Positions 1-29,260 of a DNA stretch of 64,000 nucleotides are shown in pieces. Made by a program: the position numbers and the translations under genes. Source of the DNA: Streptomyces sp. 846.5 (GTDB lineage Bacteria > Actinomycetota > Actinomycetes > Streptomycetales > Streptomycetaceae); assembly GCF_004365705.1 (NCBI RefSeq), contig NZ_SOBN01000001.1, positions 558,001 to 622,000 of the forward strand, written 5' to 3'. Each line of letters begins with the position of its first letter. Within the stretch, counting starts at the first letter, position 1. A model generated the notes under the pieces. The model ran no database searches, was not told the origin of the DNA, and saw only the letters and a list, made by a program, of their open reading frames with translations.

Positions 1-659
1 CGGTCGCCGCCGGCCAGGCCCTCGTCGTGCGCTCGGCCACACTGAGCACCGAGGAGCTGGAACAGACTGTCCGCCGGACCTTCCCGGAGGCCGTGGTCAC
101 CGGCCGCGGGTCGGGCCTGGCCGTGCTCAAGGGCGTCGGTCACCCGGACACGCTGATCGAGGAGTTCGCGCTGCGCCGCGCCGCCGGACGGCAGGGGGTC
201 GTCCACACCCGGATGGCCACCGAGTCCGCCGTCACCCCCGAGGCCGCCCACCCCTTCTCGGTCGGCGGGAACGTGTGCCTGGTCCACAACGGCTCCTTCG
301 CCAACCACGCCACCATCCGGCGCGAACTGCTGGCCGAGGGCGCGCTGTTCGACAGCGACAACGACTCGGAGGTCGGCGCCCGTTTCATCGCCCGCCAACT
401 GGCCCAGGGCGCGGACCTGGAGAAGTCGCTGCGCCTGCTGTGCGAGCGGTTCGACGGCTTCTACACCCTGCTGGTCACCACCGGCGACAGCTTCGCGGTC
501 GTCCGCGACGCCATCGCCTGCAAACCCGCCGTCGTCGCCGAGACCGACGCCTGGGTGGCCATGGCCTCCGAGTACCGGTGCCTGGCCGCACTGCCCGGCA
601 TCGAGTCGGCCCGCATCTTCGAACCCGAGCCTGAGAGGGTCTACCTGTGGCAGCACTGA
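1..659 (+). CDS. glxB: Class II glutamine amidotransferase subunit, GlxB/MgsA type (5' end outside window)
   Basis: The frame is open to the left edge, so only the last ~218 residues are present. The N-terminal catalytic Cys expected for a class II (Ntn) amidotransferase lies outside the window. Visible family features are VVHTRMATES, the core VCLVHNGSFANHATIR and SDNDSEVGARF, typical of the glutaminase domain of glutamate-synthase-like enzymes. As a free-standing subunit it should hydrolyse glutamine and pass ammonia to a GlxD-type FMN subunit. It overlaps the next gene by 13 bp, which suggests translational coupling. The glxBCD/mgsABC trio is known from N-methylglutamate synthase and related methylamine or sarcosine metabolism. 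The exact substrate here is inferred. Confidence 0.85.
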   Translation, partial: VAAGQALVVRSATLSTEELEQTVRRTFPEAVVTGRGSGLAVLKGVGHPDTLIEEFALRRAAGRQGVVHTRMATESAVTPEAAHPFSVGGNVCLVHNGSFANHATIRRELLAEGALFDSDNDSEVGARFIARQLAQGADLEKSLRLLCERFDGFYTLLVTTGDSFAVVRDAIACKPAVVAETDAWVAMASEYRCLAALPGIESARIFEPEPERVYLWQH

Positions 660-1339
660 CCGCGACCGGGGTGGACCTGCGGTCCGTGTCCGTCCGTGAA
701 CTCAACCACGCACTGCACCGGGCGACTTCGGGCACCGCCTGGCGCATCGCCCACCCGGACGGCGCCCACAACCTCGCCGTCGGCCTCGACACCGCCGTCG
801 ACGTCGTGGTCGACGGGCACGTCGGCTACTACTGCGCGGGCATGAACCAGCACGCCACGGTCACCGTCAACGGCAATGCGGGCACCGGCGTCGCCGAGAA
901 CATGATGTCCGGGACGGTTCGGGTGTGCGGTAACGCCTCCCAGGCCGCCGGCGCCACCGCCCACGGCGGTCTGCTGGTGGTCGACGGCGACGCCTCCGCG
1001 CGCTGCGGGATCTCCCTGAAGGGCGCGGACATCGTCGTCGGCGGCAACGTCGGCCATATGAGCGCGTTCATGGCCCAGGCCGGCCGCCTGGTGATCTGCG
1101 GCGACGCGGGCGACGCGCTGGGCGACTCGATCTACGAGGCCCGCATCTATCTCAGGGGCAGGGTTCGGTCGCTGGGCGCCGACTGCGTCGAGAAGCCGAT
1201 GCGGGACGAGCATCTCGCCGAGCTGGCTCAGCTGTTGAAGTCCGCGGGGCGCGACGAGGACGACCCGGCCGACTTCCGCCGCTACGGATCCGCGCGCGGC
1301 CTCTACCACTTCAACTCCGGCAACAGCAGCGCCTACTGA
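647..1339 (+). CDS. glxC: Glutamate synthase GXGXG-domain subunit, GlxC/MgsB type
   Basis: This 230-residue protein matches the third (GXGXG, beta-helix) domain of glutamate synthase as a separate subunit. Repeated Gly-rich turns such as VDGHVGYYCAGMNQ, VNGNAGTGVAENMM and VCGNASQAAGATAHGG are visible, with IVVGGNVGHMSAFMAQAG further on. The domain is structural and links the amidotransferase and FMN subunits. The GTG start at 647 lies within the end of glxB and the glxD start follows 47 bp downstream, so the three form an operon. Function is assigned from family and gene order. Confidence 0.85.
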   Translation: MAALTATGVDLRSVSVRELNHALHRATSGTAWRIAHPDGAHNLAVGLDTAVDVVVDGHVGYYCAGMNQHATVTVNGNAGTGVAENMMSGTVRVCGNASQAAGATAHGGLLVVDGDASARCGISLKGADIVVGGNVGHMSAFMAQAGRLVICGDAGDALGDSIYEARIYLRGRVRSLGADCVEKPMRDEHLAELAQLLKSAGRDEDDPADFRRYGSARGLYHFNSGNSSAY

Positions 1340-1386
1340 CCGCAGCGGCCACCGCCACCCGCACACCGCCAACCCCGGAGACCTCC

Positions 1387-2712
1387 ATGAACCAGGACCT
1401 CGCCCAGCAGGGCCTGCGCGAGTCGGCGACCTTCGACCGTGCCACCATCCACGCCATCCAGCGCGCCGCCGAGACCGGTGTCTACGACATCCGCGGCTGG
1501 GGCGCCAAGCGCAGGCTGCCGCACTTCGACGACCTGCTCTTCCTCGGCGCCTCCATGTCCCGCTACCCGCTGGAGGGTTACCGGGAGCGCTGCGGCACCG
1601 ACGTGGTCCTCGGCGACCGCAACGCGACGCATCCGCTGCACCTGGACACCCCGGTCACCATCGCCGGCATGAGCTTCGGCGCCCTGTCTGCGCAGGCGAA
1701 GGAGGCGCTGGGACGCGGCGCGAGCGAGGCCGGCACCTCCACCACCACCGGCGACGGCGGGATGACCCCCGAGGAGCGCGACCAGTCCAAGCAGTTGGTC
1801 TACCAGTACCTCCCCTCCCGCTACGGCATGAACCCGGACGACCTGCGCAAGGCCGACGCCATCGAGGTGGTGCTCGGGCAGGGCGCCAAGCCCGGTGGCG
1901 GCGGCATGCTGCTCGGCCAGAAGATCACCGAGCGGGTCGCCGGGATGCGCACCCTCCCGGTCGGCATCGACCAGCGCAGCGCCTGCCGCCACCCGGACTG
2001 GACCGGGCCCGACGACCTGGAGATCAAGATCCGGGAGCTGCGGGAGATCACCGACTGGGAGAAGCCGGTCTACGTCAAGATCGGCGCCAGCCGCACCTAC
2101 TACGACGTCAAACTGGCCGTCCAGGCAGGCGCCGACGTCGTCGTGGTCGACGGCATGCAGGGCGGCACGGCCGCGACCCAGGAGGTGTTCATCGAGCATG
2201 TGGGCGTGCCGACGCTGGCCGCCGTTCCGCAGGCCGTCCGGGCGCTGCAGGAGCTGGGCGTGCACCGCAGGGTGCAGCTGATCGTCTCCGGCGGCATCCG
2301 CGGCGGCGCCGACCTCGCCAAGTGCATGGCGCTGGGCGCCGACGCGGTGGCCATCGGCACCGCGGCCCTGATCGCGCTGGGCGACAACCACCCCAGGTAC
2401 GACGACGCCTACCGCGAACTCGGCTCCGCCGCCGGGTACTTCGACGACTACCAGGACGGCCGCGACCCGGCCGGCATCACCACCCAGGACGAGGAGCTGG
2501 CCGCCGGGCTGGACCCGGTCGCGGGCGGCCGTCGCCTCGCCAACTTCATCCGGGTGATGACCATGGAGGCCCAGACCATCGCCCGCGCCTGCGGCAAGTC
2601 CCACCTCACCCATCTGGAACCGGAGGACCTGGTGGCACTCACCATCGAAGCCGCGGCCATGGCCCGGGTGCCGCTCGCGGGCACGGACTGGATACCCGGG
2701 GCCGGGCTGTGA
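1387..2712 (+). CDS. glxD: FMN-binding glutamate-synthase-like subunit, GlxD/MgsC type
   Basis: 441 residues with the glutamate synthase FMN/FeS barrel. The N-terminal part is followed by MSFGALSAQAKEALGRGA (about residue 96), GAKPGGGGMLLGQKI, a VYVKIGASRT strand, VVVVDGMQGGTAATQEVF, and a phosphate-binding end VSGGIRGGADLAKCMALGA. The [3Fe-4S]-type cysteines should lie in the segment beginning RACGKSHL, but I see few Cys, so the cluster content is uncertain. It should join the ammonia from GlxB to a 2-oxoacid or methylamine acceptor. A good RBS (GGAGACC) precedes the ATG. The stop overlaps the next start (GTGA). Confidence 0.86.
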   Translation: MNQDLAQQGLRESATFDRATIHAIQRAAETGVYDIRGWGAKRRLPHFDDLLFLGASMSRYPLEGYRERCGTDVVLGDRNATHPLHLDTPVTIAGMSFGALSAQAKEALGRGASEAGTSTTTGDGGMTPEERDQSKQLVYQYLPSRYGMNPDDLRKADAIEVVLGQGAKPGGGGMLLGQKITERVAGMRTLPVGIDQRSACRHPDWTGPDDLEIKIRELREITDWEKPVYVKIGASRTYYDVKLAVQAGADVVVVDGMQGGTAATQEVFIEHVGVPTLAAVPQAVRALQELGVHRRVQLIVSGGIRGGADLAKCMALGADAVAIGTAALIALGDNHPRYDDAYRELGSAAGYFDDYQDGRDPAGITTQDEELAAGLDPVAGGRRLANFIRVMTMEAQTIARACGKSHLTHLEPEDLVALTIEAAAMARVPLAGTDWIPGAGL

Positions 2713-5790: not shown

Positions 5791-6777
5791 TCAGTCGGTG
5801 GTGCGGGTTCTGCGGCCGGCGAAGTAGAAGGCGACGCCCAGGAGGAGGAAGCCAGCCAGGGGGATGACCTGGGAGAGGGTGTAGGCGGCGCGCTGTCCGG
5901 CCCAGCCTGAAGGTGCGTCGTCGACCTTGGCGCCGGTGAGCCAGTCGGTGGCGAAGCCCGGGTAGACGAGCGTGATCGCACCCAGGAGGAGTAGCGACAC
6001 GGTGGCGACCACGCACAGCGCGATCACCGGCTTTCCGCCGGGAACCCGGTACGGCCGTGCCGCGTCGGGGAGCTTGCGCCGCAGCACCAGCGCGGCCGGC
6101 AGGATGCCCAGGTAGGAGAGCAGGGTGGTGGACAGGGCGAGTGCCAGGACGGCCGCGAAGTACTTGGCGGCGCTGCCGGACAGCTCATGCGCCAGCACGC
6201 AGACGGTCGACGCGACGATCCCGGAGAGCACGTTGACCCGCACCGGGGTGCCGAAGCGCGCCGAGATGACGCCCAGCGATCGCGGGGCCGCGCCGTCGTA
6301 GCCGGAGACGGCGAGGGCCCGGTCGCTGCCCATCAGCCAGGGCACGGCGCTGGTCAGCAGAGCGAGCAGGAACGCGGCGGCGACGATGTCGGCGATCACG
6401 GTACCGGCCCCGGTGAGGGTGACCGTGCCGTCGGCGGCGATGTGGCCGCCGTAGACGGTGAAGGCGGCCCGCATGGCGTCGGTGAACCCGGTCAGGCCGG
6501 TGACGCTGGAGGTGGGCAGGACGGTGAGGATGCCGACCACGGGCAGGAGGTAGCCGAGGACGGCGCCGATGCCGCCGCGCAGGATCCCGATCGGGACGTC
6601 ACGCTGGGGGTCGGTCATCTCCTCGGCGGCGGAACTGGGCACGTCGAATCCGACGAAGTTGAACAGCAGCACCGGCGTGAGCGCCAGGAACACGGCCCAG
6701 CTCGGTCGCAGGTCACCGGCGTGGATGCCGTGGAAGCCGTGCCTGATCGCGTATATGCCGACGGTGACGACGGCACG
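5791..6777 (-). pseudogene. APC-family amino acid permease, N-terminal third missing
   Basis: The readable part is about 328 codons. It contains the C-terminal two thirds of an APC-superfamily transporter: IHAGDLRPSWAVFLALTPVL, NFVGFDVPSSAAEEM (a conserved TM6-region signature), then about six hydrophobic helices ending GFLLLGVAFYFAGRRTRT. Family members are about 480-520 residues. Upstream the frame reaches an in-frame TGA at 6778-6780, and no continuation exists in any frame before the divergent gene at 6944. Internal GTG codons could start a protein of about 300 residues, but the first helices would be missing. This looks like a 5' deletion. The substrate cannot be read. Confidence 0.8.
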
Positions 6778-6943: not shown

Positions 6944-9130
6944 ATGGCGGACCAACCGGTGCCCGGCCCGAACGGCTACGACCCACGGACGAGCCCGGCC
7001 GCGACCGTCCGGGTGTCCCGGCCTGCGGCGGCGCCGGCCCAGGTCGAGCCGTCGGCCGGCCGGAACGACCTGCTGGCCCTCAACGGCATGGGCAGCTTCG
7101 ACTGGGACCTCGACGCCGGGACCTACCACCTCGACGAGGTCGGCCTCGAGGTGTTCGACCTGCGGGCGGACGAGTACGACGGCCGGCCGACCTCACTGGC
7201 GACGCGGGTCTCCCCCGAGGACGGCCACCGGCTCGACGCCGCGGTGTCGCTGGCCATCCAGGCGGGCCGGCTGACCTTCGCGGCCTACTTCCAGGTGGTC
7301 TGCCGCGACGGCACCCGCCGCTGGGCACACACCCAGGGCCGGATCCTGCGGGACGAGCAGGCCTACCCCTACCGCGTCGTCGGCATCGTCCGCAACGCCG
7401 ACGAGGAGCTGGCGCACGCCGAGGCGATGCGCACGCTGGGCGCCGACCGGCGCCGCCAGACGGACTCCGTGCGGGCCACCACCGAGGCCCTCGCCCGCGC
7501 TCTCACTGTCGAGGACGTGATCCGCGTGCTCACCGACAGCGAGGGGCTCCGGCGGTTCGGCGCCGACGGGCTCGCGCTGGGCCTGGTCGAAGGGAACACC
7601 ATACGGCTGGTCGCCGCCACCCACCCGCCCTCGCCGGCGCTCCGGGCGCAGGACGACTTCTCCTTCACCCGGTTGGACGACCGGCTGCCGCTGGCCGAAG
7701 CCGTCCGCTCCGGACGGCCGCAGTTCGTCGGCGACCAGGACGAGCTCTGCGCCCGCTACCCCAGGCTGCGCCCCTACGCGGACCAGATGGGCATCAACGC
7801 GGGCGCCTTCCTGCCCCTGATCGCCCAGGCACGCACCCTCGGGGCGCTGGGCCTCTACTACGCCGACAGCCATGAGTTCAGCACCGAGGACCGCAACATC
7901 TGCATCGCCCTGACCAGCGCCGTCGCCCAGTCACTGCAACGCGCCGTGCTGTTCGACCAGGAGCGCGAGTTCGCCACCACCCTGCAGACCACCATGCTGC
8001 CCCGGCGGATCCCGCGGATCAGCGGCGGCGAGGTGGCCGTCCGCTACCGGGCCGGACGCAGCGGACGGGAGGTGGGCGGCGACTGGTACGACGTGATCCC
8101 GCTGCCGCACGGCCGGGTCGGGCTCGTCGTCGGCGACGTCGAGGGGCACGACAGCCACGCCGCCGCCATCATGGGCCAGCTGCGGATCGCCCTGCGCGCC
8201 TACGCCGCCGAGGGCCACGCCCCGTCCACCGTGCTGGCCCGGGCCTCGCGGTTCCTGGCCGAGCTCGACACCGAGCGCTCCGCCACCTGCATCTACGTGG
8301 AGGCGGACCTGGAGACCGGCGCGCTCCGGCTGGCCCGGGCCGGCCATCTCGAACCGCTGCTCCGGCATCGCGGCGGCCGCACCAGCTGGCCCGCGGTGCG
8401 CGGCGGACTCCCGCTGGGGATGGCCACCGTCTTCGAGGCGGACGACTACCCGGAGACCCGGCTGCACCTGAACCACGACGGCGTCCTGCTGCTCTGCACC
8501 GACGGTCTGGTCGAGCGGCCCGGCCAGGACATCGCGGAGGGGATGGACACGCTCGCCGAAGCCCTGGAGTCGGGACCGCTCTGCACCGAGGCGCTCGCCG
8601 ACCACCTGTGCCGCGAAGGCTCCGGCCACTCCGGGACCGAGGACGACATGGCGCTGCTCCTGCTGCGGCGCACCCCCGCTCCCGGCGGCCGGGTTCCGAT
8701 CCGCGCGGTGCAGCACATCCACCAGGCCGATCCGGAGGGGCTGGTCGAAGCCCGCGCCGTGCTCCGGCAGACCCTGTCCGCCTGGGCGGCCAGCGGCCCG
8801 ATCAGCGACATCGAGCTGGTGGCGGACGAACTGATCACCAACTCGCTGGTGCACACCGACAGCGGGGCGACCCTGACCGTCGAGCTCCTCGGCGACGCCC
8901 GGCCCCGGGTCCGCCTGGAGATCCAGGACTCCTCCAGCGAGTGGCCGCGACGCCGGGTCCCCGGCGAGACCGCCACCTCCGGCCGCGGGCTGCTCCTGGT
9001 GGACGCCCTGGCCGAGAGGTGGGGGGTGCAGCCGCTGGGCTCCGGCAAGAGCGTCTGGTGCGAGTTCCCGCTGACGCCGCCGCTCAGTCCAGCAGCCGAC
9101 GGGTCCGCAGAGCCAGGAAGAACTCGGTGA
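6944..9130 (+). CDS. PAS-GAF-SpoIIE (PP2C-type) phosphatase with C-terminal anti-sigma-like ATPase domain
   Basis: 728 residues in four modules. A PAS/PAC sensor is at about 45-165 (GSFDWDLDAGTYHLDEVGLE). A GAF domain is at about 180-335. The SpoIIE-type Ser/Thr phosphatase is at about 345-570 (MLPRRIPRISGGEVAVRYRA, GGDWYDVIPL, VGLVVGDVEGHD, LLLCTDGLVERPG). A GHKL ATPase of the RsbW type is at about 590-715 (VADELITNSLVHT, GRGLLLVDALAERWG). Such proteins dephosphorylate anti-sigma antagonists and may also kinase them, linking small-molecule or redox sensing to partner switching. The ATG has a GGGAG RBS. The 3' end overlaps the convergent pucR gene by 47 bp. Confidence 0.9.
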   Translation: MADQPVPGPNGYDPRTSPAATVRVSRPAAAPAQVEPSAGRNDLLALNGMGSFDWDLDAGTYHLDEVGLEVFDLRADEYDGRPTSLATRVSPEDGHRLDAAVSLAIQAGRLTFAAYFQVVCRDGTRRWAHTQGRILRDEQAYPYRVVGIVRNADEELAHAEAMRTLGADRRRQTDSVRATTEALARALTVEDVIRVLTDSEGLRRFGADGLALGLVEGNTIRLVAATHPPSPALRAQDDFSFTRLDDRLPLAEAVRSGRPQFVGDQDELCARYPRLRPYADQMGINAGAFLPLIAQARTLGALGLYYADSHEFSTEDRNICIALTSAVAQSLQRAVLFDQEREFATTLQTTMLPRRIPRISGGEVAVRYRAGRSGREVGGDWYDVIPLPHGRVGLVVGDVEGHDSHAAAIMGQLRIALRAYAAEGHAPSTVLARASRFLAELDTERSATCIYVEADLETGALRLARAGHLEPLLRHRGGRTSWPAVRGGLPLGMATVFEADDYPETRLHLNHDGVLLLCTDGLVERPGQDIAEGMDTLAEALESGPLCTEALADHLCREGSGHSGTEDDMALLLLRRTPAPGGRVPIRAVQHIHQADPEGLVEARAVLRQTLSAWAASGPISDIELVADELITNSLVHTDSGATLTVELLGDARPRVRLEIQDSSSEWPRRRVPGETATSGRGLLLVDALAERWGVQPLGSGKSVWCEFPLTPPLSPAADGSAEPGRTR

Positions 9131-10598
9131 CGTGCTCCAGCCGGTCGAGGTCCCGCCCGGTCAACTCCTCGACGCGGCGCATCCGGTAGGCGAGGGTCTG
9201 CCGATGGATGCACAGCCGCGCGGCGGCCTCCTGCCAGGAGCGGTTGGCGTCGAGGAACACCTCCAGCGAGCGTACGAGCTCCGTCCCGTGCTCGGTGTCG
9301 TAGCGGACCAGCGTCCCCAGCACTCCGTCGACGGCGGCCTCCGCCTCACCGAGCGTGCGGGGCAGGAAGAGCGGCATGTCCGTGCCGTAGACGGCCACCG
9401 GCGGTCCGCCGGTACGGGACGCCTCGCGGGCCCAACGGGCCTGGCGCACCGCGTCGGGGATTCGTTGCAGCGAGTGGACGGCCCCGCTGGCACCAATGCG
9501 TCCTGCCTGTCCCAGCTCCTCGGCCAGGAGCTTCAGGGCGGTCTCCGAGCCGTCGATCAGCACGGTCAGCCCGTCGTCCGCGGCCACCAGCAGGAAGCCT
9601 GATCCGCGCGCCGCCAGAGCGCGCCGCAGCTCCGCCTGGCCGGCCCCGGCCGCCGGCTCCGTGGTGACGATCCGCCAGGGCGCGTCGCCCAGGCGCAGTT
9701 CCCGCAGGCTGCGCAGTGTGGCCAGCTCCGAGTCCACCTCGCCGCGGATCAGTTGGGAGAGCAGTCGGGATCCGCTCTGGAACAGCCGCTCCTCGGCCGC
9801 CTCGTGCCGGTCCGCCTCCAGCGAGGCGACCGCCGCCACATGCTGGAGGACGACGAGATCCGGGCTGCCCGTCTCGACCACGCCGACCAACAGGGTCCGG
9901 CCACCGGTTCCGACGGGCTGGACGAGCACGGTGGCGTCGCCCCAGGCCGCGCCGGTCTGAGCCGGCAGCGGCCCGGTACGGCCCTGGACCAGCGTCCTGA
10001 CGATCTCGCGCAGTTCCTCCGGTACGGACGGCTCGCCCGTGCCGGGAGCGGGCCGCAGGGTTCGGCCGTCCACCAGGTACAGCCGCGCCCCCACCTGGCG
10101 GCCCAGCCGTTCCAGCAGCCCGGCCCCGCTGTCACCGCTGAGAGCCGTGGCGCGGTAGCTCTCGTAGACGCGCATGATCTGGGCCAGGCGGGCGAAGCCG
10201 TCGCGCTGGTTGGCGTCGGCGACGGTCTGGGCGAGCAGGACGAAGGGGACCTGGTAGGCCGTCTCCAGGACCGGGAAGCCCAGCGCGTCCGCGGTCCGCA
10301 GGGCGGCGGCGGTCAGCGGCGGGGCGTTCATGCCGGCGCCCACGGCCATGCCGCTGAGCCCGGCCCGCGCCAGCCGGGTCAGGAACTCGACCTGGCGGTC
10401 CTGCTCCGAGGGGATGTTCAGGCCGGTGGTGAGCAGCAGCGCGCCGGATCCCATCCACTCCCAGGGCTCGGCCAGCTCGCAGGTGTGCGCCCACAGCACC
10501 GGCCGGTCCCCGCCGGCCGCACCGGCGAGCAGGGTGCTGTGCAGGGAGGGGATCCCGGCCAGGTCCCGCGCGGTGATCCCGGCCGCTGCGTCCGCCAC
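9084..10598 (-). CDS. PucR-family transcriptional regulator
   Basis: 504 residues. The N-terminal purine-catabolism (PucR) sensory domain begins TARDLAGIPSLHSTLLAG and contains WAHTCELAEPWEWMGSGALL and TTGLNIP. A GGDEF-like middle region follows. The C-terminal PucR helix-turn-helix reads VFLDANRSWQEAAARLCIHR, then QTLAYRMRRVEELTGRDLDR. It is the first intact gene downstream of the broken one-carbon block and is 6 bp from the etfA-folD remnant, so it was probably part of that operon. It likely sensed a metabolite of the pathway. It is full length and has no visible lesion. Confidence 0.88.
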   Translation of the reverse strand: MADAAAGITARDLAGIPSLHSTLLAGAAGGDRPVLWAHTCELAEPWEWMGSGALLLTTGLNIPSEQDRQVEFLTRLARAGLSGMAVGAGMNAPPLTAAALRTADALGFPVLETAYQVPFVLLAQTVADANQRDGFARLAQIMRVYESYRATALSGDSGAGLLERLGRQVGARLYLVDGRTLRPAPGTGEPSVPEELREIVRTLVQGRTGPLPAQTGAAWGDATVLVQPVGTGGRTLLVGVVETGSPDLVVLQHVAAVASLEADRHEAAEERLFQSGSRLLSQLIRGEVDSELATLRSLRELRLGDAPWRIVTTEPAAGAGQAELRRALAARGSGFLLVAADDGLTVLIDGSETALKLLAEELGQAGRIGASGAVHSLQRIPDAVRQARWAREASRTGGPPVAVYGTDMPLFLPRTLGEAEAAVDGVLGTLVRYDTEHGTELVRSLEVFLDANRSWQEAAARLCIHRQTLAYRMRRVEELTGRDLDRLEHVTEFFLALRTRRLLD

Positions 10599-10604
10599 GT
10601 CCCG

Positions 10605-11285
10605 TCAGCCCCTTCCGCTGCCGCGCTCGGCGGCCTCCACGACGTTGGCCAGCAGCATCGCGCGGGTCATCGGGCCGACCCCGCCGGGCATCGGGGCCAG
10701 CCAGCCGGCGACCTCCCGTACCTCGGGGGCCACATCGCCGACGAGCCGTCCGTCGACGCGGGTGATGCCCACGTCGAGCACCGCGGCGCCGGGCTTGACC
10801 AGGTCGGCGGTGACCAGCCCGGCGACGCCCGCCGCTGCGACGACGATATCGGCGCCGCGCAGATGGCGGGCCAGGTCTCGGGTGCCGGTGTGGCACAGGG
10901 TGACGGTGGCGTTCTCGCTGCGGCGGGTCAGCAGCAGCCCGAGCGGCCGGCCCACAGTGACGCCGCGGCCCACGACCACGACCTCGGAGCCGTCCAGCGG
11001 TACCTCGTGGCGTCGCAGCAGTTCGACGATGCCGCGGGGGGTGCAGGCCAGCGCCTCGGCCTTGCCGATCGCGGCATGGGCACGACGGCCCGCCGTGGTG
11101 ACGGTGCGGATCGCGGTGGCGCCGTGCCGGGCCAACTCCTCCAGTACGGCGGCGATGTCGTCACCGCCGTCGAGGAAGACCACGGCCGTGGGTTCGCCGA
11201 GACCGCCGGCGAGGGCCAGCAGTTCCAGGGTGGACGAACGGACCGCACCGTCGGCGTGGTCCGCCAGTACCAGGACGTCTGTCAT
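10605..11285 (-). pseudogene. Fused remnant: ETF alpha N-terminus joined to FolD C-terminus
   Basis: The open frame of 226 codons is a chimera. Residues 1 to about 62 are the start of electron-transfer-flavoprotein alpha ([20 protein letters not shown], then GEPTAVVF and HGATAIRTV). From about residue 74 it is the C-terminal NAD(P) domain of methylene-THF dehydrogenase/cyclohydrolase FolD ([60 protein letters not shown]). The FAD domain of EtfA and the N-terminal catalytic Tyr/Lys half of FolD are absent. One in-frame deletion with its joint near 11066-11102 would explain this. The product should lack both parental activities. It could be translated, as the frame, start and RBS region are intact. 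Confidence 0.85.
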
Positions 11286-11315: not shown

Positions 11316-12088
11316 CTACTTGTGTGCGGCGAGGAAGTCGGCCAGCTGCGCTGCGCCCTGGCCCTCGTCGGTGACGACGGTTCCGCGCTGCCGCGCCGGG
11401 CGCGGGGTGGTGTCGAGCACCCGGGTGGCGGGGGCCAGGCCGGGGTGCGTGGCATCGAGACCCAGGTCGGAGAGGTCCCAGGTGAGGACGGGCTTCTTCT
11501 TGGCGGCGAGAATGCCCTTGAAGGTGGGGTAGCGCGGCTCGCCGGACCGGTCGGTGACCGACACCACGGCGGGCAAGGCCGTTGAGAGCTGCTCGCTCCC
11601 CCGGTCACCGTCCCGACGGACCGTCAGCAGTGAGTCACTCAGCTCGATTTGGGCGGCGAGCGTGGTGTGGGCCACCCCGAGGCGCTCGGCCAGCATGGCC
11701 GGAATCACGGACCCTGCCCCGTCGGTGGAGGCCATTCCGCACACCACCAGGTCATAGCCGAGGGCCTGCACCGCCTTGGCCAGGACCAGCGAGGTGGTCA
11801 GGTAGTCGGCACCCGCGAGGCACTCGTCGCTGACGTGCACCCCCCCGGTCGCCGCCCATGGCCAGGGGCCTTGCGCAGGGCGTCGGCTGCGTCCTCCGGA
11901 CCCATCGTCAGATGGGTGACCTGGGCGCCGGGATGCTGTGCGGCCAGCAGCAGGGCCTGCTCGACGGCGTACTCGTCGAGCTCGGACAGCCTGCCGTCGC
12001 ACAACTCCCGGTCCAGGAGGCCGTCGTCAGTGAAGCAGCGGTCACCCGCACTGTCGGGCACATGCTTGACCAGGACCACGATGTTCAT
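11316..12088 (-). pseudogene. etfB: Electron transfer flavoprotein beta subunit, frameshifted
   Basis: The ATG at 12088 begins MNIVVLVKHVPDSAGDR and reads correctly to DAADALRKA. It then runs out of frame within a run of four C on the coding strand (plus-strand G run 11864-11867). Removing one C restores KALAMGGDRGVHVSDECLAG and the complete remainder (YDLVVCGMASTDG, PAMLAERLGVAHTT, FKGILAAKKKP) to the stop at 11316. The corrected length, about 257 residues, is normal for EtfB. ETF would accept electrons from dimethylglycine dehydrogenase. A sequencing or assembly error in the homopolymer is the alternative, but the lesions on both sides make true decay credible. Confidence 0.85.
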
Positions 12089-12106: not shown

Positions 12107-12340
12107 TCAGGTGAAGACGACGGTGCGGTGCCCGTTGAGCAGCACCCGGTGCTCGGCGTGCCACTGGACCGCACGGGCCAGCGCTCCGGCCTCCAAGTCA
12201 CGGCCGAGAGCGGCCAGTTGCTCAGGGGTCAGCCCGTGGTCGACCCGGGCGTAGGCCTGCTCGATGATCGGGCCCTCGTCCAGGTCGGCGGTGACGTAGT
12301 GCGCGGTGGCGCCGACGACCTTGACGCCGCGGGCGTGCGC
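12107..12340 (-). pseudogene. purU: Formyltetrahydrofolate deformylase, C-terminal fragment
   Basis: Seventy-seven codons plus stop encode the end of PurU: AHARGVKVVGATAHYVTADL, DEGPIIEQAYARVDHGLTPE, then GALARAVQWHAEHRVLLNG. About 210 N-terminal residues (ACT domain and the first half of the formyl-transferase fold) are missing. It follows, in the same frame, the head of a dimethylglycine-dehydrogenase gene, separated only by the TAG at 12341-12343. PurU would release formate from formyl-THF made from demethylation carbon. The fragment has no start signal of its own. Confidence 0.87.
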
Positions 12341-12778
12341 CTAGTAGAGCGAGCCGACCACGCCGTCCGGGTTGAGCAGCGGGAACAGCTCGGCGGTGGA
12401 GTCGGGGCCGAGCAGCTGGGTGCGGATGCCGTGGCCGCGCGACACGGAGGCCTGGCGGCGCAGTTCCTCCCAGCGGTCGGCCCTGGTGGCGAGGTGGATG
12501 GTGCCGGTGCGCTCGTAGCCGGTGGACAGACCGGTGTCGGCCTCCAGGGTGCGGAACACCTCCAGGCTGCGCTGGACGATCTCGCGGGTGCCGTAGGTCG
12601 GGCGGGCCTGGGTGACCAGGCCGGCGGCGTGCCAGGTCGTGCCCGAGGTCAGCTGCTTGCGTTCGAGGACGACCACGTCGGTCCAGCCCCGCTTGGCGAG
12701 GTGATAGGCGGTGCTGCAGCCGATGACGCCGCCACCGACGATCACCACCTGGGCGCGGGTCGGAAGGGTTCGGTCCAC
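12341..12778 (-). pseudogene. Dimethylglycine/sarcosine dehydrogenase-like FAD enzyme, N-terminal fragment
   Basis: The GTG at 12778 (RBS GGAGA) opens a frame of 145 codons that ends at TAG 12341-12343. It contains the FAD motif VVIVGGGVIGCSTAYHLAKR, then VVVLERKQLTSGTTWHAAG and LFPLLNPDGVVGSLY, characteristic of DMGDH/SDH proteins of about 800-850 residues. Only about 17 percent remains. The intact enzyme would have demethylated dimethylglycine with ETF as acceptor. The cut falls in the middle of a conserved stretch, and purU sequence follows in the same frame, showing a deletion of several kilobases. Confidence 0.87.
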
Positions 12779-13021
12779 CTGGGGGTCTCCTTGGTACGGA
12801 CGGACTGGGTCCGTGGGGTGGTGCGGGACGGGGGTGCCGGGACAGCGGCACCGGAGCACCCCCGGCCGGTACGAGTCTGGGCGCGGCGGGGGGAGGGCGG
12901 GTACTGGCCTGGCTCGACAAGCGGACGGCTCGTCTTGTGCGCGTGGATGAACGAGCGACGGAGCCGGGGCAGCGCAGGGCAAAGCACCCCGCCGGGCGGG
13001 GTCGGCGGGGTAACGGAGGTA

Positions 13022-13660
13022 CTACGGCTGCCCGGCGGGCGGGCGGAACGGCAGCGGCGCGGTCAGACCCAGCTCGCGGCCGATCAGCTCCCCTACGGCG
13101 AGCTGACTGGCTGTCAGCGCCTCGGGCGTGCCCAGCAGCATGGCCTGCAGACCGAAGCCGTCCAGCAGGGCGAGGATCCGGGTGACGGTCGCGTCCGGGT
13201 CCGGACAGGCGAACTCGCCGGCCTTCACCCCGTCCGCGACCACCGCGGTGAACTCCTCGCGCAGCTTGCCGTAGAGGCTCTCCACGGTGCTGCGCAGGCT
13301 GGGGTCACGCACCGCGTGCAGCCACAGCTCCATCCACAGCAGCCACTCCTCGCGCAGCCCGGTGTCGGCGGGCAGCGAGTAGGTGATCAGGTCGGCCAGC
13401 CGCTCGGTGATCCCGGCCCGGGCGCCGGGGGTGCCGCTGAGGCGCAGCACTCCGGCCCGGTCGTAGGCGTGCACCAGGGCGGCGTCCAGCAGGTCGGCCT
13501 TGGTGGCGAAGTGGTAGTGGACCAGGGCGGTCGAGACCTCGGCGTCGCGCGCGATGTCGCGGATCTTCGCGCCCTCCAGCCCGTTGCGGGCGATGTGGGA
13601 GCAGGCGGCTTCGATGATCCTCGCCCGGGCGCCGGTGGTGGTTTCGCTGTCGCTCTTCAT
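13022..13660 (-). CDS. TetR-family regulator of the Rieske oxygenase locus
   Basis: 212 residues. The N-terminal HTH is AKIRDIARDAEVSTALVHYH followed by FATKADLLDAALVHAYDRAG. The rest is a ligand domain with no specific signature. Its start overlaps the Rieske oxygenase stop by 4 bp, so the two are co-transcribed. The palindromes at 14826-14859 upstream of the oxygenase are its likely operator. It probably senses a methylated amine or demethylation product. The gap 12779-13021 to the next remnant downstream holds only the RBS and leader of that remnant. Confidence 0.87.
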   Translation of the reverse strand: MKSDSETTTGARARIIEAACSHIARNGLEGAKIRDIARDAEVSTALVHYHFATKADLLDAALVHAYDRAGVLRLSGTPGARAGITERLADLITYSLPADTGLREEWLLWMELWLHAVRDPSLRSTVESLYGKLREEFTAVVADGVKAGEFACPDPDATVTRILALLDGFGLQAMLLGTPEALTASQLAVGELIGRELGLTAPLPFRPPAGQP

Positions 13661-14802
13661 GTCCGGGAGACATCATGCCCGAGCAGACCGGTGTCTGCCA
13701 GCGACTCCCGCAGCCGGTCGGCGAACCAGCCGACGGCCACCTCGCGGCTGGAGAGCGGCCCGAACTCGAAGCCGGGATTGGCGCTGCCGCGCTGCACCCG
13801 GACCACCACGCCCTCGTCCTCCCCGGTGACCAGGTTGTTGATGGCGATGTTCAGTCGCTGCACGACCTTGGTGCGCAGCCCGGAGCCGGCCGCGCGGTAC
13901 TGCGACATGCAGATGTGGCTGAGGTTCGGGGACTCGGGCACGATCCGCCACACATTGACCTGGTCGGGGTACAGGTCGAGCATCGTGTTGGGGTAGATCA
14001 GGGCGTAGCGCCAGACCCGGGCGTCCTCCTCGGACAGGCCCGGCATCGGGCGCACCAGCTTCTGGTAGGCGCGCTCCACCCGGTTGCCGGAGGGCTCGTC
14101 GCGCAGCGGGGCCTCGAAGAAGGTGAAGCCGGGGTGGGGCGTCGCGGTGTACTTCTGGTACTGGTAGAGCCTGGTCAGCCCGGGGTGGGCGGTGGGGACG
14201 TGGTAGCCCTCCAGGTAGTTGTCGATCAGCACCTTCCAGTTGGAGCCCTGGTCCCACTTGGGGTCCCAGGCGTGGACGCCGAGGCCGGGGCCGAACTGCT
14301 CCAGCGGACCCTTCAGATAACGCCCCGCCAGCTCCTCCAGCCCGGCCAGCTGCTCGCCGAGCGGGGTCGCCGCCAGGTCCAGGTTGACGAAGACCAGACC
14401 CATCAGGGTGTCCACCTGGATCTTGGGTAGCCCCAGCCCGGCGCGGTCCAGGCAGTCGAAGCTGCGGGCCTCGGGCGCGGCCAGGAACGAGCCGTCGTAG
14501 CGGTAGGTCCAGCCGTGGTACGGGCAGCGGATGCCCTTGGTCTCGAAGGCGCCGCGCCCGGTGCCCAGCACCGCGCCGCGGTGCCGGCAGGCGTTGCGGA
14601 TGCCATTCAGCTCGCCCTCCTGGCCGCGGACCACCATCACCTCGTAGCGGCCGACCTTCTGGGCGATGTAGCTGCCCGGGTTCGGCAGATCGCTGACATG
14701 GCCGACGACCTGCCAGGTCCGTTCGAAGACGGCTTCCTGCTCGGCGTCGAAGGCGGCCTGGTCGTGGTACAGCCGGGCCGGCAGCAGTCGGGTCTCGCTC
14801 AT
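13657..14802 (-). CDS. Rieske non-haem iron oxygenase alpha subunit (glycine betaine monooxygenase GbcA-like)
   Basis: 381 residues. The Rieske [2Fe-2S] ligands are Cys72 and His74 (ACRHRGAVLG), then Cys93 and His96 (RCPYHGW). The mononuclear iron site is in IDNYLEGYHVPTAH (His201, His206, with Asp194 bridging). The fold and length fit the choline/glycine betaine/carnitine-type monooxygenases, which remove one methyl as formaldehyde. The local set of sarcosine oxidase and dimethylglycine dehydrogenase remnant supports glycine betaine as substrate. The likely reductase partners are encoded divergently (15256-16743). Stachydrine-type or carnitine substrates cannot be excluded. Confidence 0.85.
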   Translation of the reverse strand: MSETRLLPARLYHDQAAFDAEQEAVFERTWQVVGHVSDLPNPGSYIAQKVGRYEVMVVRGQEGELNGIRNACRHRGAVLGTGRGAFETKGIRCPYHGWTYRYDGSFLAAPEARSFDCLDRAGLGLPKIQVDTLMGLVFVNLDLAATPLGEQLAGLEELAGRYLKGPLEQFGPGLGVHAWDPKWDQGSNWKVLIDNYLEGYHVPTAHPGLTRLYQYQKYTATPHPGFTFFEAPLRDEPSGNRVERAYQKLVRPMPGLSEEDARVWRYALIYPNTMLDLYPDQVNVWRIVPESPNLSHICMSQYRAAGSGLRTKVVQRLNIAINNLVTGEDEGVVVRVQRGSANPGFEFGPLSSREVAVGWFADRLRESLADTGLLGHDVSRT

Positions 14803-14863: not shown

Positions 14864-15259
14864 ATGAGACGTCAACGACTCCGCTGGCTCGGTTTGACCG
14901 CCGAGCCGGAACGCGACCTCCCCCATACACTCGCTGTGCTGCAGGCACGCGGAACGCCCAGCGGGGAGGCGGTACGGGAGCAGCGCCGGCTGGCCGAGCG
15001 TTCCGTCCTGCACGGCACCGAGCGGAGCTGGCTGCGCTATCTGGACGACGCTGCGCTCCAGGTCCCGGCGGCTCCCCCCGCCGACCCGGTGGTGCGCGCC
15101 GCGGCCGTCGTGGTCGCCGAAGTCGTCCTGAACCACCACCGACTGCTCGCCGGGTTCCCCGGCCCCGCCTACGACGACGCCGCCCTGGAAAGACGCCGCA
15201 TGCGCGCCTTCCTCGCGGAAGTCCATGCGGAAGACCGTGCCCAAGGAGGCGCCACATGA
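14864..15259 (+). CDS. Small protein of unknown function coupled to the NuoF-like gene
   Basis: 131 residues, Arg/Ala/Leu rich, with no Cys, no membrane helix and no signal peptide. I recognise no domain. The middle (RAAAVVVAEVVLNHHRLLAG) is predicted helical. Its ATG lies only 5 bp after the second palindrome, and its stop overlaps the NuoF-like start (ATGA), so it is the first gene of the electron-transfer operon. It may be an assembly or docking partner of the oxygenase system (inference from position only). A NuoE-type subunit is excluded by the absence of cysteines. Confidence 0.65.
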   Translation: MRRQRLRWLGLTAEPERDLPHTLAVLQARGTPSGEAVREQRRLAERSVLHGTERSWLRYLDDAALQVPAAPPADPVVRAAAVVVAEVVLNHHRLLAGFPGPAYDDAALERRRMRAFLAEVHAEDRAQGGAT

Positions 15260-16527
15260 TCACCCAGTCCGCCGTACGGATCCGCCCGCTCCCCGGAGCC
15301 GCGACCCGGCTGCTCCTGGACCAGCGCCAGGAGTGGGAGGGGCTCGCCGACTACCTCCCCCGGCACGGCTACGCCCGCTCCCCCGACTCCGCCGAGATCC
15401 GGGCCCTGGTGGACGCTGCCGACCTGCGCGGACGCGGCGGAGCCGGCTTCCCGACCGCCGTGAAGATCGCCGCCGTCGCCGACTCCCCGAACCCGGTGCG
15501 CTGCGTGGTCGCCAACGGCGAGGAGGGCGAGCCGGCCAGCGTGAAGGACCGCTACCTGCTGCGACACCGCCCGCACCTGGTCCTGGACGGTCTGATGCAC
15601 GCCGCCCGCGCGGTCCGGGCCGACCGGGCCTACGTCTACGTCTCCGACGCGGCGTCAGCCCGCAGCGTGCGCACCGCACTTGCCGAGCGGCCGCCCGCGG
15701 TCCCGGTGCATGTCGTCACCGTCCCCGCCGGATATGTGGCCGGCGAGTCGTCGGCCGTGGTGCGCGCCATCAACGGCGGGCCCGCCAAGCCGACGGCCAA
15801 GCCGCCGCACCCCTACGAGCAGGGCGTGGGCGGGGTCCCGACCCTGGTGCAGAACGTGGAGACCCTCGCCCACCTGGCCCTGCTGGTCAGCCACGGGGTG
15901 GACGCGCACCGCGCGCACGGCACCCCCGAGTGCACCGGCACCTTCCTGCTCACCCTGTCCCCGCCGCGGGGACCCGCGGTGCTCACCGAGACGGCCTACG
16001 GCACGGTCCTGGGCGACGTCGTCGCCGAGCACCTGGGCCCGGTCGACGTCACCGGGGTGCTGATGGGCGGCTTCGCCGGCGGCATCCTCGGCCCCGAGGC
16101 GCTGGGCCTGCCGCTCACCCACGACGCCGTCCTGCACGCCGGCGGCCTGCTGGGCTGCGGCGCGGTGGCCCTGCTCGGCCCGGACGACTGCCCGATCTCC
16201 GCCGCCGCGGACATCGCCGCCTACTTCGACCGGGAGAACGCCGCCCAGTGCGGCCCCTGCATCAAGGGCACCGACGCCATGGCCGCGGACCTGGCCGCGC
16301 TCGCCTCCGCCCGAGCCGGAACGGCCGAGGTCGACCGCCTGGAACGCCTCTCCACCAACCTGCGCCGCCGCGGCGCCTGCGGCCTGCTCGACGCCGCCTG
16401 CGCCGCGACCGCCTCCCTGCTCAGCCGGCACCGCCCCCTGGTCGACGCCCACCTGGACGCAGCCTGCCCCGACTGCGCCGCCAACCCTCCATGCAGCGAC
16501 GACACCCGTTTCCGCATCACCTGGTAA
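15256..16527 (+). CDS. NuoF-like NADH:FMN iron-sulfur flavoprotein
   Basis: 423 residues. The NADH/FMN motifs of the complex I 51-kDa family are present: LRGRGGAGFPTAVKI (about 57-71) and NGEEGEPASVKDRYLLRHRP (about 88-107). An SLBB-like section follows, then GVGGVPTLVQNVETLAHLAL. The cluster region reads QCGPCIKGT with a later RRGACGL. Compared with NuoF's CxxCxxC plus Cys, the first Cys seems replaced. An extra ACPDC lies near the C-terminus. It probably oxidises NADH and passes electrons to the ferredoxin encoded 21 bp downstream. Its position opposite the Rieske oxygenase suggests it serves as that enzyme's reductase. Confidence 0.8.
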   Translation: MITQSAVRIRPLPGAATRLLLDQRQEWEGLADYLPRHGYARSPDSAEIRALVDAADLRGRGGAGFPTAVKIAAVADSPNPVRCVVANGEEGEPASVKDRYLLRHRPHLVLDGLMHAARAVRADRAYVYVSDAASARSVRTALAERPPAVPVHVVTVPAGYVAGESSAVVRAINGGPAKPTAKPPHPYEQGVGGVPTLVQNVETLAHLALLVSHGVDAHRAHGTPECTGTFLLTLSPPRGPAVLTETAYGTVLGDVVAEHLGPVDVTGVLMGGFAGGILGPEALGLPLTHDAVLHAGGLLGCGAVALLGPDDCPISAAADIAAYFDRENAAQCGPCIKGTDAMAADLAALASARAGTAEVDRLERLSTNLRRRGACGLLDAACAATASLLSRHRPLVDAHLDAACPDCAANPPCSDDTRFRITW

Positions 16528-16548: not shown

Positions 16549-16743
16549 ATGAAGATCGACGTCGACGGAAACAAGTGCCAGGGCTACGGCCTGTGCGCCG
16601 AGGTCGCCTCCGCCCTGTTCGTCCTGGACGACTTCGGCTTCGCCGCCGCCTCGGGCGACGGCACCGTCCCCCCGGAGCAGGTCCAGGCCGCCCTGCAAGC
16701 CATCAACGAATGCCCCGCCTCAGCAGTACGCCGACTCGACTGA
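16549..16743 (+). CDS. [3Fe-4S]-type small ferredoxin
   Basis: 64 residues. Three cysteines are arranged as Cys10-x5-Cys16 ... Cys55-Pro (KCQGYGLCAEVA, NECPASAV), the pattern of single-cluster 3Fe-4S ferredoxins usually paired with P450s in actinomycetes. It follows the NuoF-like gene by 21 bp with a GAGGAA RBS. No P450 is encoded nearby, so its partner is probably the Rieske oxygenase (inference). Confidence 0.88.
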   Translation: MKIDVDGNKCQGYGLCAEVASALFVLDDFGFAAASGDGTVPPEQVQAALQAINECPASAVRRLD

Positions 16744-21460: not shown

Positions 21461-21503
21461 GATGCTCGCTCCTTGAACCGCAGGTCGGTGGGAGGGGCGG
21501 GAA

Positions 21504-22586
21504 TCAGGCCCCGTGGTCGGCCACCCGCGCCTGGATCAGCGCTTCGGCCGAGGGGGATCCGGGGCCGACCTCGGGCATCTGTACGTCGGTTGTGCTGAAG
21601 CCGGCCGCCTCCAGGAGCGCGGTGAGCTCCGCGAGGGTGCGCTCGCGCCCCCCGAGGACGACGAGCATCTGCAGGTCGGAGAACTTTCCGGGGTGGAACC
21701 CGGCAACCTGGGGAATGGCCTTGTCGATGAGGAGCAGCCTGGAGTGCGGCCCCATGGCCGCGCGGACCGTGTTCAGGATCCGCAGGGCGTCGTCGTCATC
21801 CCAGTCGTGGATGACCCGGGACAGGATGTAGCAGTCTCCCCCCGTGGGGACGGACTCGAAGAAGCTGCCGCCGAGGACGTCGGCCCGGTCGAGAACGTTC
21901 CGCGCGGCGAGGAGGTCACGGGCCTGGGCCACGCCCGCGGGCGTGTCCAGGAGGATTCCCCTGAGGTGCTGGTGTCGCTCCAGCAGGTGCGCCAGGAGAC
22001 CGCCCATGCCTCCGCCGACGTCCACCACCGTCCGGTCGCCGCTGAAGTCGTGGTGGGTGAGTACGTGTGCGGGTGCTCCGGTGCCGGCCATGGCGTTGAA
22101 CGCGGCGCTGGGAGCCGCCTCCTGCGCGAGGAAGGCGAAGTGCGACATCCCGTAGACATGGTCGAAGGCCGCCTCTCCGGTGCGCACGGTGTGCATCACC
22201 TGGGCCCAGGCGCTGAAGCTCTCCTCCCCGTTGACGATGATGAAGTAGCGCAGGCCCCCCGGGGCGTCGGAACGAAGGGCCGCGCCGACGGGCGTGGTGG
22301 CGAAGGTGCGCCCGGGAAGCTCCCGCAGTACTCCCAGTGCCTCCAGCGCCCGGCAGAACCGGTAGAGGGCTCCGGGATGCGCGTTGGTCTCCTGCGCCAG
22401 GTCCTCGCTGGTCCGCGGGCCGTGGGCGAGCGCGTCGGCGAGGCCGAGTTTGGCGGCGACGTACAGGCTCTGGAACGCCCAGGGCGCCGTGGTGACCACC
22501 AGTTCGCTGAGTGCGGCGGTGTCGGGGGGCGAGGAGGGAGCAGCCTCGGGTGCGACTGCCGGTGCGGATGTGGTGGGGCTGTTCAT
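21504..22586 (-). CDS. SAM-dependent O-methyltransferase 1 (polyketide tailoring)
   Basis: 360 residues. An N-terminal dimerisation/winged-helix domain (SLYVAAKLGLADALAHGPRT, YRFCRALEALGVL) is followed by the SAM-binding loop TVVDVGGGMGGLLAHLL. The catalytic His region is SRVIHDWDDDDALRIL. This is the TcmO/DmpM-type family that methylates phenolic hydroxyls on aromatic polyketides. The ATG at 22586 overlaps the stop of the upstream small gene (ATGA), which fixes the start. It is in the main biosynthetic operon, unlike the other two methyltransferases. Confidence 0.9.
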   Translation of the reverse strand: MNSPTTSAPAVAPEAAPSSPPDTAALSELVVTTAPWAFQSLYVAAKLGLADALAHGPRTSEDLAQETNAHPGALYRFCRALEALGVLRELPGRTFATTPVGAALRSDAPGGLRYFIIVNGEESFSAWAQVMHTVRTGEAAFDHVYGMSHFAFLAQEAAPSAAFNAMAGTGAPAHVLTHHDFSGDRTVVDVGGGMGGLLAHLLERHQHLRGILLDTPAGVAQARDLLAARNVLDRADVLGGSFFESVPTGGDCYILSRVIHDWDDDDALRILNTVRAAMGPHSRLLLIDKAIPQVAGFHPGKFSDLQMLVVLGGRERTLAELTALLEAAGFSTTDVQMPEVGPGSPSAEALIQARVADHGA

Positions 22587-22798
22587 GACTGGCCTTCCTC
22601 GGGAACAGGCTCCGGGGCCGCGGAATGGGGTATGGCGAGGCCGTACCACCAGCCCAGGTGGATGAGGCCGTGGGTCACGGCATGCCCGATGCGTCGCAGG
22701 AATCCGCTCTGCGGAGCGGGGCTGAGGTAGTACCAGGGCGAATCCCCCGACGGGGGCGGGCCCATGGGGTGACGGGTGTCCCGCAGGTGCCTAGGCAT
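22583..22798 (-). CDS. Small protein of unknown function between cyclase and methyltransferase
   Basis: 71 residues if it starts at the ATG 22798 (overlapping the cyclase stop by 8 bp), or 60 residues from 22765. The core PWYYLSPAPQSGFLRRIGHA, then GLIHLGWWYGLAIPHSAAP, is rich in Trp/Tyr and weakly amphipathic. There is no Cys and no recognisable domain. It is coupled on both sides by overlaps, so it is almost certainly translated. Its presence inside the polyketide operon suggests a pathway-specific role, perhaps as a binding or cyclisation helper, which is only inference. Confidence 0.65.
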   Translation of the reverse strand: MPRHLRDTRHPMGPPPSGDSPWYYLSPAPQSGFLRRIGHAVTHGLIHLGWWYGLAIPHSAAPEPVPEEGQS

Positions 22799-23120
22799 TG
22801 CGTTCCCAGCGGTAGAACTCCTGTGCCATGGCGTCCTTGGGCTCGCGCCAGGTCGTCGGGTCGTAGGCCGCGACGAAGGGACGCAGTTCCTCGCTGATGC
22901 GCCGGAACTCCGGGTGGTGCCGCGCGTCGGTGACCGCGGACTCCACCGGCGCCTCCCCTTCGACCAGGTGCAGGTAGACCTGGCCGAACTGGAAGAGGCT
23001 GCGCGACCGGACGCCGATGGTCTGCGGCAGGTCCGTGGTCCGGTCGGAGTTCGCGAAGATCTCCGCGATGTCGGGCGCGGCGTCCGGCAGCATCCGGGCG
23101 ACGATGAGGCTTCGGTACAT
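22791..23120 (-). CDS. TcmI-family polyketide cyclase
   Basis: 109 residues of the TcmI/WhiE-ORFVII ferredoxin-like fold: MYRSLIVARMLPDAAPDIAE, IGVRSRSLFQFGQVYLHLVE, ARHHPEFRRISEELRPFVAA and the C-terminal KDAMAQEFYRWE. TcmI catalyses the last ring closure in tetracenomycin biosynthesis, and relatives act in spore pigment and pentangular polyphenol pathways. It lies 22 bp after the hydroxylase gene in the operon. Together with the monodomain aromatase and the cupin it forms a three-cyclase set for a polycyclic skeleton. Confidence 0.92.
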   Translation of the reverse strand: MYRSLIVARMLPDAAPDIAEIFANSDRTTDLPQTIGVRSRSLFQFGQVYLHLVEGEAPVESAVTDARHHPEFRRISEELRPFVAAYDPTTWREPKDAMAQEFYRWERNA

Positions 23121-23142
23121 CCGTCTCTCCTGTGGTCGTGTG

Positions 23143-24273
23143 TCAGATGAGGAAGTCGGGGACGTCCTGGCCGAGTAGGACGGATCCGGCCCGGCGCTGT
23201 GCCTCCAGGCCGAAGGCGATGTGCTGCGCGGCTGTCTGGACGTCGCGGAAGAACCGCTGGAGCGGCGCGCGGTCGTAGAGCTGGCTCGCCCCGCAGGCCC
23301 GCATCGCCGAGTCCGCCACGTCGATCGTCGTACGCATGGCGTGTTGCACCGAAGCGGTCAGCAGCGCCCGGGACCCGGGCGACGCGATGCCGTCCTGCGT
23401 CTCGGCCCAGACCTGTCGCACCGCGTCGTGGACAAAGGACCGGGCCGAACGGACGGCCGCCTCGCAGCGCACGATCTCGGCCTGAATGATCGGGGTCTGC
23501 GCGAGCAGGGTCCGTTCGGTGTTCCGCTTGACCAGGACGATGTCGCGGTACTCGTCGACGATGCGCCGCGCCGTGCCCAGGGGGAAGCCGGCCATGGCGA
23601 CCAGCAGATAGCTCATGTAGGGCAGGCGGTAGAGCGGACCGTCCTCCTGTGCGGGCCCGAACGGGTCGAACGTGAAGCGCCGGGGGACGACGACGTCGGT
23701 GGCCTCGATGTCGTGGCTGCCGGTGCCCCGCAGGCCGGCGACGTGCCAGGTGTCGTGTATCCGGACGTCGGCGCTGGGCAGCAGCGCGAACCGGGGCCCC
23801 CCGGCGCCTTGCCGGAACCCCGCCACCAGGTAGTCGGCGACCGAGCATCCGCTGGTGTACGGCCAGCGGCCGGTCAGTCGGATCGCGTCGTCCCCGCTGG
23901 GCACCGCGCTTCCGTGCGGTGCCATCGACCCGGTGATCAGGGGTGCGGGCCGGGTGCCCACGACCTCCTCGGCCGCGTCCCGGTCCAGCCAGGCCAGGTA
24001 GCCGGCGCCCTGGCCGATCAGGACGGTCCAGCCGGTGGCGGCGTCGCCTCGGCTCAGCTCCTCCACCACCCCGATCAGGGTCAGCGGGTCGGCTTCCAGG
24101 CCGCCGAGGGAGGCCGGGGCCATGAGGCCGAACAGGCCCGCGTCACGCAGTTCCGCGACCAGGTCGGCGGGGACGGTGCGGCCGGATTCCACCTCCAGCG
24201 CCCGGCCCGGCAGGTCGGCCGCTATCCGGACGGCTGATTCGAGCGGGGAGCTCTGTGTCGTGGTGACGGACAT
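23143..24273 (-). CDS. Acyl-CoA-dehydrogenase-fold flavin monooxygenase A
   Basis: 376 residues with the ACAD fold but no acyl-CoA signature. It resembles two-component FMNH2-dependent hydroxylases (HsaA, ActVA-ORF5 type). Visible segments are RTVPADLVAELRDAGLFGLM, SRGDAATGWTVLIG, TGRWPYTSGCSVADYL, DTWHVAGLRGTGSHDIEATD and the C-terminal ASQLYDRAPLQRFFRDVQ. Such enzymes hydroxylate aromatic polyketides or phenols and need reduced flavin from a reductase. It is paralogous to the adjacent gene (24333-25529). No dedicated flavin reductase of the HpaC type is visible. The WrbA-like gene at 34526 is one possible source. Confidence 0.83.
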   Translation of the reverse strand: MSVTTTQSSPLESAVRIAADLPGRALEVESGRTVPADLVAELRDAGLFGLMAPASLGGLEADPLTLIGVVEELSRGDAATGWTVLIGQGAGYLAWLDRDAAEEVVGTRPAPLITGSMAPHGSAVPSGDDAIRLTGRWPYTSGCSVADYLVAGFRQGAGGPRFALLPSADVRIHDTWHVAGLRGTGSHDIEATDVVVPRRFTFDPFGPAQEDGPLYRLPYMSYLLVAMAGFPLGTARRIVDEYRDIVLVKRNTERTLLAQTPIIQAEIVRCEAAVRSARSFVHDAVRQVWAETQDGIASPGSRALLTASVQHAMRTTIDVADSAMRACGASQLYDRAPLQRFFRDVQTAAQHIAFGLEAQRRAGSVLLGQDVPDFLI

Positions 24274-24332
24274 GACGCCCTCTCTCTGCTTCGTTGCTGC
24301 GGGGAAGTTGGCGGTGCAGGACGGGCGGCGAC

Positions 24333-26347
<2,015 letters not shown>

Positions 26348-28827: not shown

Positions 28828-29213
28828 GCCGGCTCCTCGGTGTCCACATGCCCGAGCTCGGGCCGCGGGGCCAGCGGACCCAGGTGGAAGACGATGCGCG
28901 CCTCCTGCTCCCCGGTGTTGCGGACCCGGTGGCGGACGTTCACCGGCACCAGGAGTCCCTGGCCGGCGCGGGCCAGGTGCGGCCGACCGTCCAGGTCGAC
29001 CGTGACCTCACCACTCGTCAGGTACAGGAACTCCTCGGAGTAGGGGTGGTAGTGCTCGACCACCCGTTCTCCGGGCTGCAGGATGGCGACCCCCATGAAC
29101 CCGGAGGTGCTGCCGACGGTGGCCGGGCTCAACAGGGTGCGCAGATCGCCACCGCGTTTGCGGTTGGCGGGGACCTCATCGATGTCGACGACGCGGACGG
29201 GCTTGCTGGTCAC
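28824..29213 (-). CDS. Cupin polyketide cyclase (WhiE-ORFII type)
   Basis: 129 residues from the GTG at 29213, chosen because a TGGAG RBS lies 6 bp upstream and the conserved start is [20 protein letters not shown]. An upstream GTG at 29264 overlapping the previous stop would add 17 residues. The cupin metal motif is [20 protein letters not shown] with [12 protein letters not shown]. Relatives in spore-pigment and pentangular clusters assist ring cyclisation. Its position immediately before KS matches whiE. Confidence 0.88.
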
Positions 29214-29260
29214 GTGGGCTCCAGATCGCGAAGGGGTGTTGACGGTGCCGTGTCCCGCGT

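Follow-up and report, generated by a model that had tools for sequence, protein, structure and literature searches.

Related systems

The purU-mabO-folD operon of pAO1 in Paenarthrobacter (Arthrobacter) nicotinovorans is activated by PmfR; MabO transfers the methyl group of a methylated amine to tetrahydrofolate, from which FolD and PurU free the carbon as formate (PMC3891541, PMC6214936). In Paracoccus aminophilus JCM 7686, folD and purU serve the oxidation of CH2-THF derived from methylamine use (PMC4543880).

The locus described here lies in a 64 kb window (the whole stretch of DNA that was analysed) of Streptomyces sp. 846.5 and resembles the pAO1 operon in holding pieces of a FAD demethylase, PurU and FolD next to a regulator whose sole NCBIfam match is PmfR. 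It differs from that operon in the addition of ETF genes, a Rieske oxygenase and a BetI-type regulator, in a PmfR-like regulator that scores far under the PmfR cut-off, and in that most of its enzyme genes are broken: the FAD demethylase, PurU and FolD are all recognisable, but solely as head or tail fragments. The pieces of FAD demethylase, PurU, ETF and FolD nevertheless fit the job of the pAO1 operon, with ETF as the electron acceptor. As with the folD-purU loci of P. aminophilus, tmm, dmm, gmaS and mgs genes are found in the same genome; unlike them, the locus belongs to an actinomycete, its folD and purU survive as tails only, and intact copies of both are located elsewhere in the genome.

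Deletion-fusion pseudogenes, in which the head of one gene is joined to the tail of a neighbour by a deletion with little homology, are a general class. The chimera reported below differs from this class in nothing essential, except that the reading frame happens to be kept; a literature search on chimeric pseudogenes yielded no specific paper to the point.

The chimeric reading frame

The chimeric open reading frame is located at 11285..10605 on the minus strand, starts with ATG and encodes 226 amino acids without an internal stop; it comprises residues 1-79/80 of EtfA followed by FolD from the motif CTPRGI onward. Its description in the earlier note as one intact frame of 226 codons, beginning as EtfA and ending as FolD, was borne out by the ORF check, by Pfam and by the homology of the head to EtfA. 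The only Pfam match was the FolD NAD(P)-binding domain PF02882, which is near-complete (model positions 11-158 of 160, residues 74-221, E 5e-56), and the highest-scoring NCBIfam model for the tail was the FolD equivalog, matched from profile position 132. Regarding the head, similarity to EtfA extends over residues 1-61 or 62, with an identity of about 50-60% to sequences from the same genome and from relatives. The ETF N-terminal domain PF01012 gave no match in the chimera at 1e-3, only about 79 EtfA residues being kept.

The C-terminal FAD-binding motifs of EtfA (GGRGVG, QVGQTGK and GISGAIQH), which are found from residue 203 on in the full protein, are absent from the chimera, as are the catalytic YxxxK, Q and D motifs of FolD, located at residues 49-124 of the full protein; the FolD portion starts at about residue 140 of FolD, past these motifs. 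Residues essential to EtfA and residues essential to FolD are thus both missing, as expected of a pseudogene, and the earlier proposal that the NADP domain of FolD was kept but neither active site agrees with this motif content and with the PF02882 match. Within the FolD part the nucleotide motif GRGxTVGRP, the C-terminal core and the Rossmann core are conserved. Of 63 near-invariant columns only two deviate, including one at the joint, which suggests that the decay is recent.

The deletion joint

The spacing between the motifs [YHF]GA and K..AL of EtfA was 18 residues in all 53 loci in which it was measurable, and it is likewise 18 residues in the chimera (HGA...KAEAL, residues 54-79, with K75-A-E-A-L79). 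Because this spacing is unchanged, the EtfA part is taken to run to residue 79 despite the divergent sequence there. The strictly conserved CTP of the FolD motif CTPRGI begins at C81, and the proline that precedes CTPRGI in 94 of 94 relatives is replaced by alanine at position 80 of the chimera. These three features place the joint within CTG GCC TGC (codons 79-81), at about 11053-11045 on the minus strand, slightly further on than the interval 11066-11102 given in the earlier note, whose reading of the frame as a head-to-tail deletion fusion is otherwise supported. Microhomology at the joint is little or none, apparently one or two bases at most.

With a full EtfA of 317 amino acids and a full FolD of 282 amino acids (relative locus L113) as size models, the DNA missing from the parents amounts to about 726 bp of etfA, about 417 bp of folD and whatever spacer lay between them, that is, at least about 1.15 kb; an earlier figure of roughly 1.3 kb is about right. 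The run folD-etfB-etfA in L113 was considered as an ortholog of the region and rejected, as it represents a chromosomal purN-purH-folD locus.

An 18-base inverted repeat with 94% complementarity links the chimera (11088-11105) with etfB (11557-11574). It is probably due to chance; a role as templated filler at the joint was rejected, since the EtfA spacing passes through it unchanged.

Further lesions in the operon

Between the two fusions lies a broken etfB (11316..12088, minus strand), the N-terminal part of which is in a frame starting at 12088 and the C-terminal part in a frame ending at 11316. Compared with eight aligned relatives, two of its homopolymer runs (11840-11846 and 11865-11868) each hold one extra base, which shifts the reading frame.

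Upstream in the same operon, the segment 12110-12793 is a second head-to-tail deletion fusion, here of a FAD oxidoreductase head to a PurU tail. Of the roughly 815 residues of a MabO/DMGDH-like FAD oxidoreductase, the head (12344..12793, minus strand, start approximate) codes for 150, and it covers positions 2-139 of the 353 positions of the DAO domain; it is followed by an in-frame TAG stop codon made at the joint (12341..12343, minus strand) and directly by the PurU tail. Homologues of the oxidoreductase (66-69% identity) have open frames of 818-918 codons that reach 665-674 codons beyond the break. Of PurU (formyltetrahydrofolate deformylase), only the final 76-77 residues remain (12110..12340, minus strand; PRK06027 positions 210-285 of 286), about 210 residues being missing. 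If the oxidoreductase and PurU genes were adjacent, the second deletion removed at least about 2.6 kb.

About 4 kb from the chimera, an amino-acid permease gene (5794..6777, minus strand; PF13520 positions 161-405 of 427) is truncated at its 5' end and lacks the first 160 or so residues. The second fusion with its stop codon, the frameshifted etfB and the truncated permease nearby indicate that the chimera is part of operon decay and not the product of a clean single birth: an in-frame deletion fusion is supported, as had been proposed, but the earlier picture of one deletion leaving a clean chimera does not extend to an operon that is damaged throughout.

Distribution and redundancy

Sought among 14 genomes of the genus, the chimera was matched over its full length only in its own genome, the others matching the head or the tail separately; the same was true of 80 loci from a species-wide collection of genome contigs, in which the fusion was absent. 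The search for the same junction in sister genomes that the earlier note had suggested thus found it nowhere else. Proteins related to the head run on as complete EtfA, and proteins related to the tail as complete FolD.

Searches with EtfB, the Rieske oxygenase and the FAD oxidoreductase head, each in several hundred genomes, did not find the operon whole and intact; a DNA search with the whole region in the genus and searches of plasmids likewise yielded separate homologues only. The neighbourhoods of homologues and of plasmid hits were fetched and compared, and none carries the whole gene set.

Besides the broken operon, the genome carries two etfBA pairs, three FolD genes and two copies of PurU; since intact copies exist, loss of the genes of this operon would be tolerable. 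A second close copy of the FAD oxidoreductase was not seen in the genome at E 1e-45. In a separate region (G000:C3:258807-266570; L206:6807-14570), intact FolD and PurU genes are located beside genes that, by eye, look like tetrahydrofolate-dependent demethylases and a reductase.

Origin of the chimera

The chimera is very probably a pseudogene remnant of a deletion in a decaying one-carbon (tetrahydrofolate) oxidation operon that was damaged by end-joining deletions. The sequences, the two joints, the frameshift in etfB and the intact paralogues elsewhere in the genome are observed directly; how the genes were arranged in the ancestor, in what order the lesions arose, that function was lost and which pathway was served are inferred. 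The ancestral minus-strand operon would have encoded a MabO/DMGDH-like FAD demethylase, PurU, EtfB, EtfA and FolD, ahead of the PucR-family regulator; the adjacency of etfA and folD is suggested by the fusion itself and by the logic of such an operon. The oxidase would have removed N-methyl groups, passing the electrons to ETF and the methyl carbon to tetrahydrofolate, and FolD and PurU would then have oxidised the tetrahydrofolate-borne carbon to formate; the operon may have handled the one-carbon steps in the use of methylated amines or betaine. A deletion of the end-joining type (at least 1.15 kb) would have fused codons 1-79/80 of etfA in frame to the NADP domain of FolD, a second one (at least 2.6 kb) would have brought the oxidoreductase head up against the PurU tail, thereby creating the stop codon, and etfB would have acquired two +1 slips. 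The in-frame survival of the EtfA-FolD fusion would be a matter of luck, with a chance of about 1/3 for the phase and with stops being rare in DNA of very high G+C content.

An error of sequencing or assembly, under which the genes are complete in the genome while two stretches were dropped and two bases added in the assembly, is unlikely. Both lesions of etfB are single-base homopolymer insertions, which are typical sequencer errors; the two deletion joints, however, are not of this type. No long direct repeat was found spanning either joint, which leaves a repeat collapse without a substrate, and the paralogues in the genome (about 50-65% identical to the EtfA head and 71% to the FolD tail) are too different for mis-merging. 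Furthermore, the damage is concentrated in one operon. Among the nearby genes checked, Tmm and the GmaS-like, MgsC-like, carboxylase and biotin carboxylase genes have complete domains, and the assembly (5 contigs) has a completeness of 100% and a contamination of 0.08%.

That the chimera is a functional new protein, made by the cell and serving, for instance, as a regulator or as a decoy that binds NADP, is very unlikely. The frame keeps its start and stop and has coding-like codon positions, the GRGxTVGRP motif and the C-terminal core of FolD are retained, and the spacing to the downstream PucR-family gene is tight; on these sequence features a residual protein may be made. Against a function stand the absence of the fusion from all other genomes searched and the breakage of other genes of the operon. 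The open frame itself carries little weight, because the six frames of the window contain 131 stop-to-stop frames of at least 236 codons, a consequence of composition. The AlphaFold prediction (mean pLDDT 56, below 50 in the joint region) was based on a shallow alignment of 26 rows, gave no confident fold and, as a model, is uninformative to negative. The earlier suggestion that the chimera could matter as a protein therefore gains no support: no congener shares the fusion, the predicted structure is of poor quality, and open frames are to be expected given the base composition. A more specific form of the same idea, in which the chimera is translated, its Rossmann domain kept or gained a use (such as NADP binding or interference with ETF or FolD) and the strain moved methylated amines from carbon to nitrogen-only use, is extremely unlikely. 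The chance of an old, native family of EtfA-FolD fusions is practically nil, as the relatives of head and tail are full EtfA and full FolD proteins and a second fusion of the two was not seen among them.

The chimera is thus almost certainly a commonplace pseudogene, one of several lesions in an operon undergoing decay, and does not represent a new kind of protein. The locus gives a clear view of an actinomycete operon in the course of decay, with two deletion fusions and two slips within one small operon, and cautions annotators against taking a long, clean frame in high-G+C DNA as evidence of a functional chimeric protein.

Neighbouring genes

Several genes around the broken operon have complete domains. 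The PucR-family regulator (9084..10598, minus strand) is distantly similar to PmfR, its single NCBIfam match (NF045769) scoring 184.9 bits against a cut-off of 800. On the other side are a TetR-family regulator with a BetI-type C-terminal domain (13022..13660, minus strand), the alpha subunit of a Rieske oxygenase nearest to carnitine and glycine-betaine monooxygenases (13657..14802, minus strand), and, as possible electron-supply partners on the plus strand, a NuoF-like flavoprotein (15256-16527) and a small ferredoxin (16549-16743).

A methylated-amine cluster, apparently intact as far as its sequence tells, adjoins the broken operon (G000:C1:547680-557736, i.e., L207:9680-19736, and window positions 27-2712). 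It encodes a trimethylamine monooxygenase (Tmm; 815.5 bits, cut-off 675), a DmmA-family protein that also scores above its cut-off, a haem-dependent N-demethylase (HODM subunits), a type III glutamine synthetase (GmaS-like), a permease and three proteins with MgsABC-type domains. With the one-carbon oxidation operon broken beside methylated-amine genes that look intact, methylamines are predicted to be a nitrogen but not a carbon source for the strain. One further frame of the cluster looks like a TMAO demethylase of the DUF1989/GcvT type.

Farther along the window, positions 21500-35200 contain type II polyketide-type genes (a ketosynthase at 27565-28827, a SchA/CurD domain, a cyclase and an O-methyltransferase), possibly a spore-pigment-like cluster.
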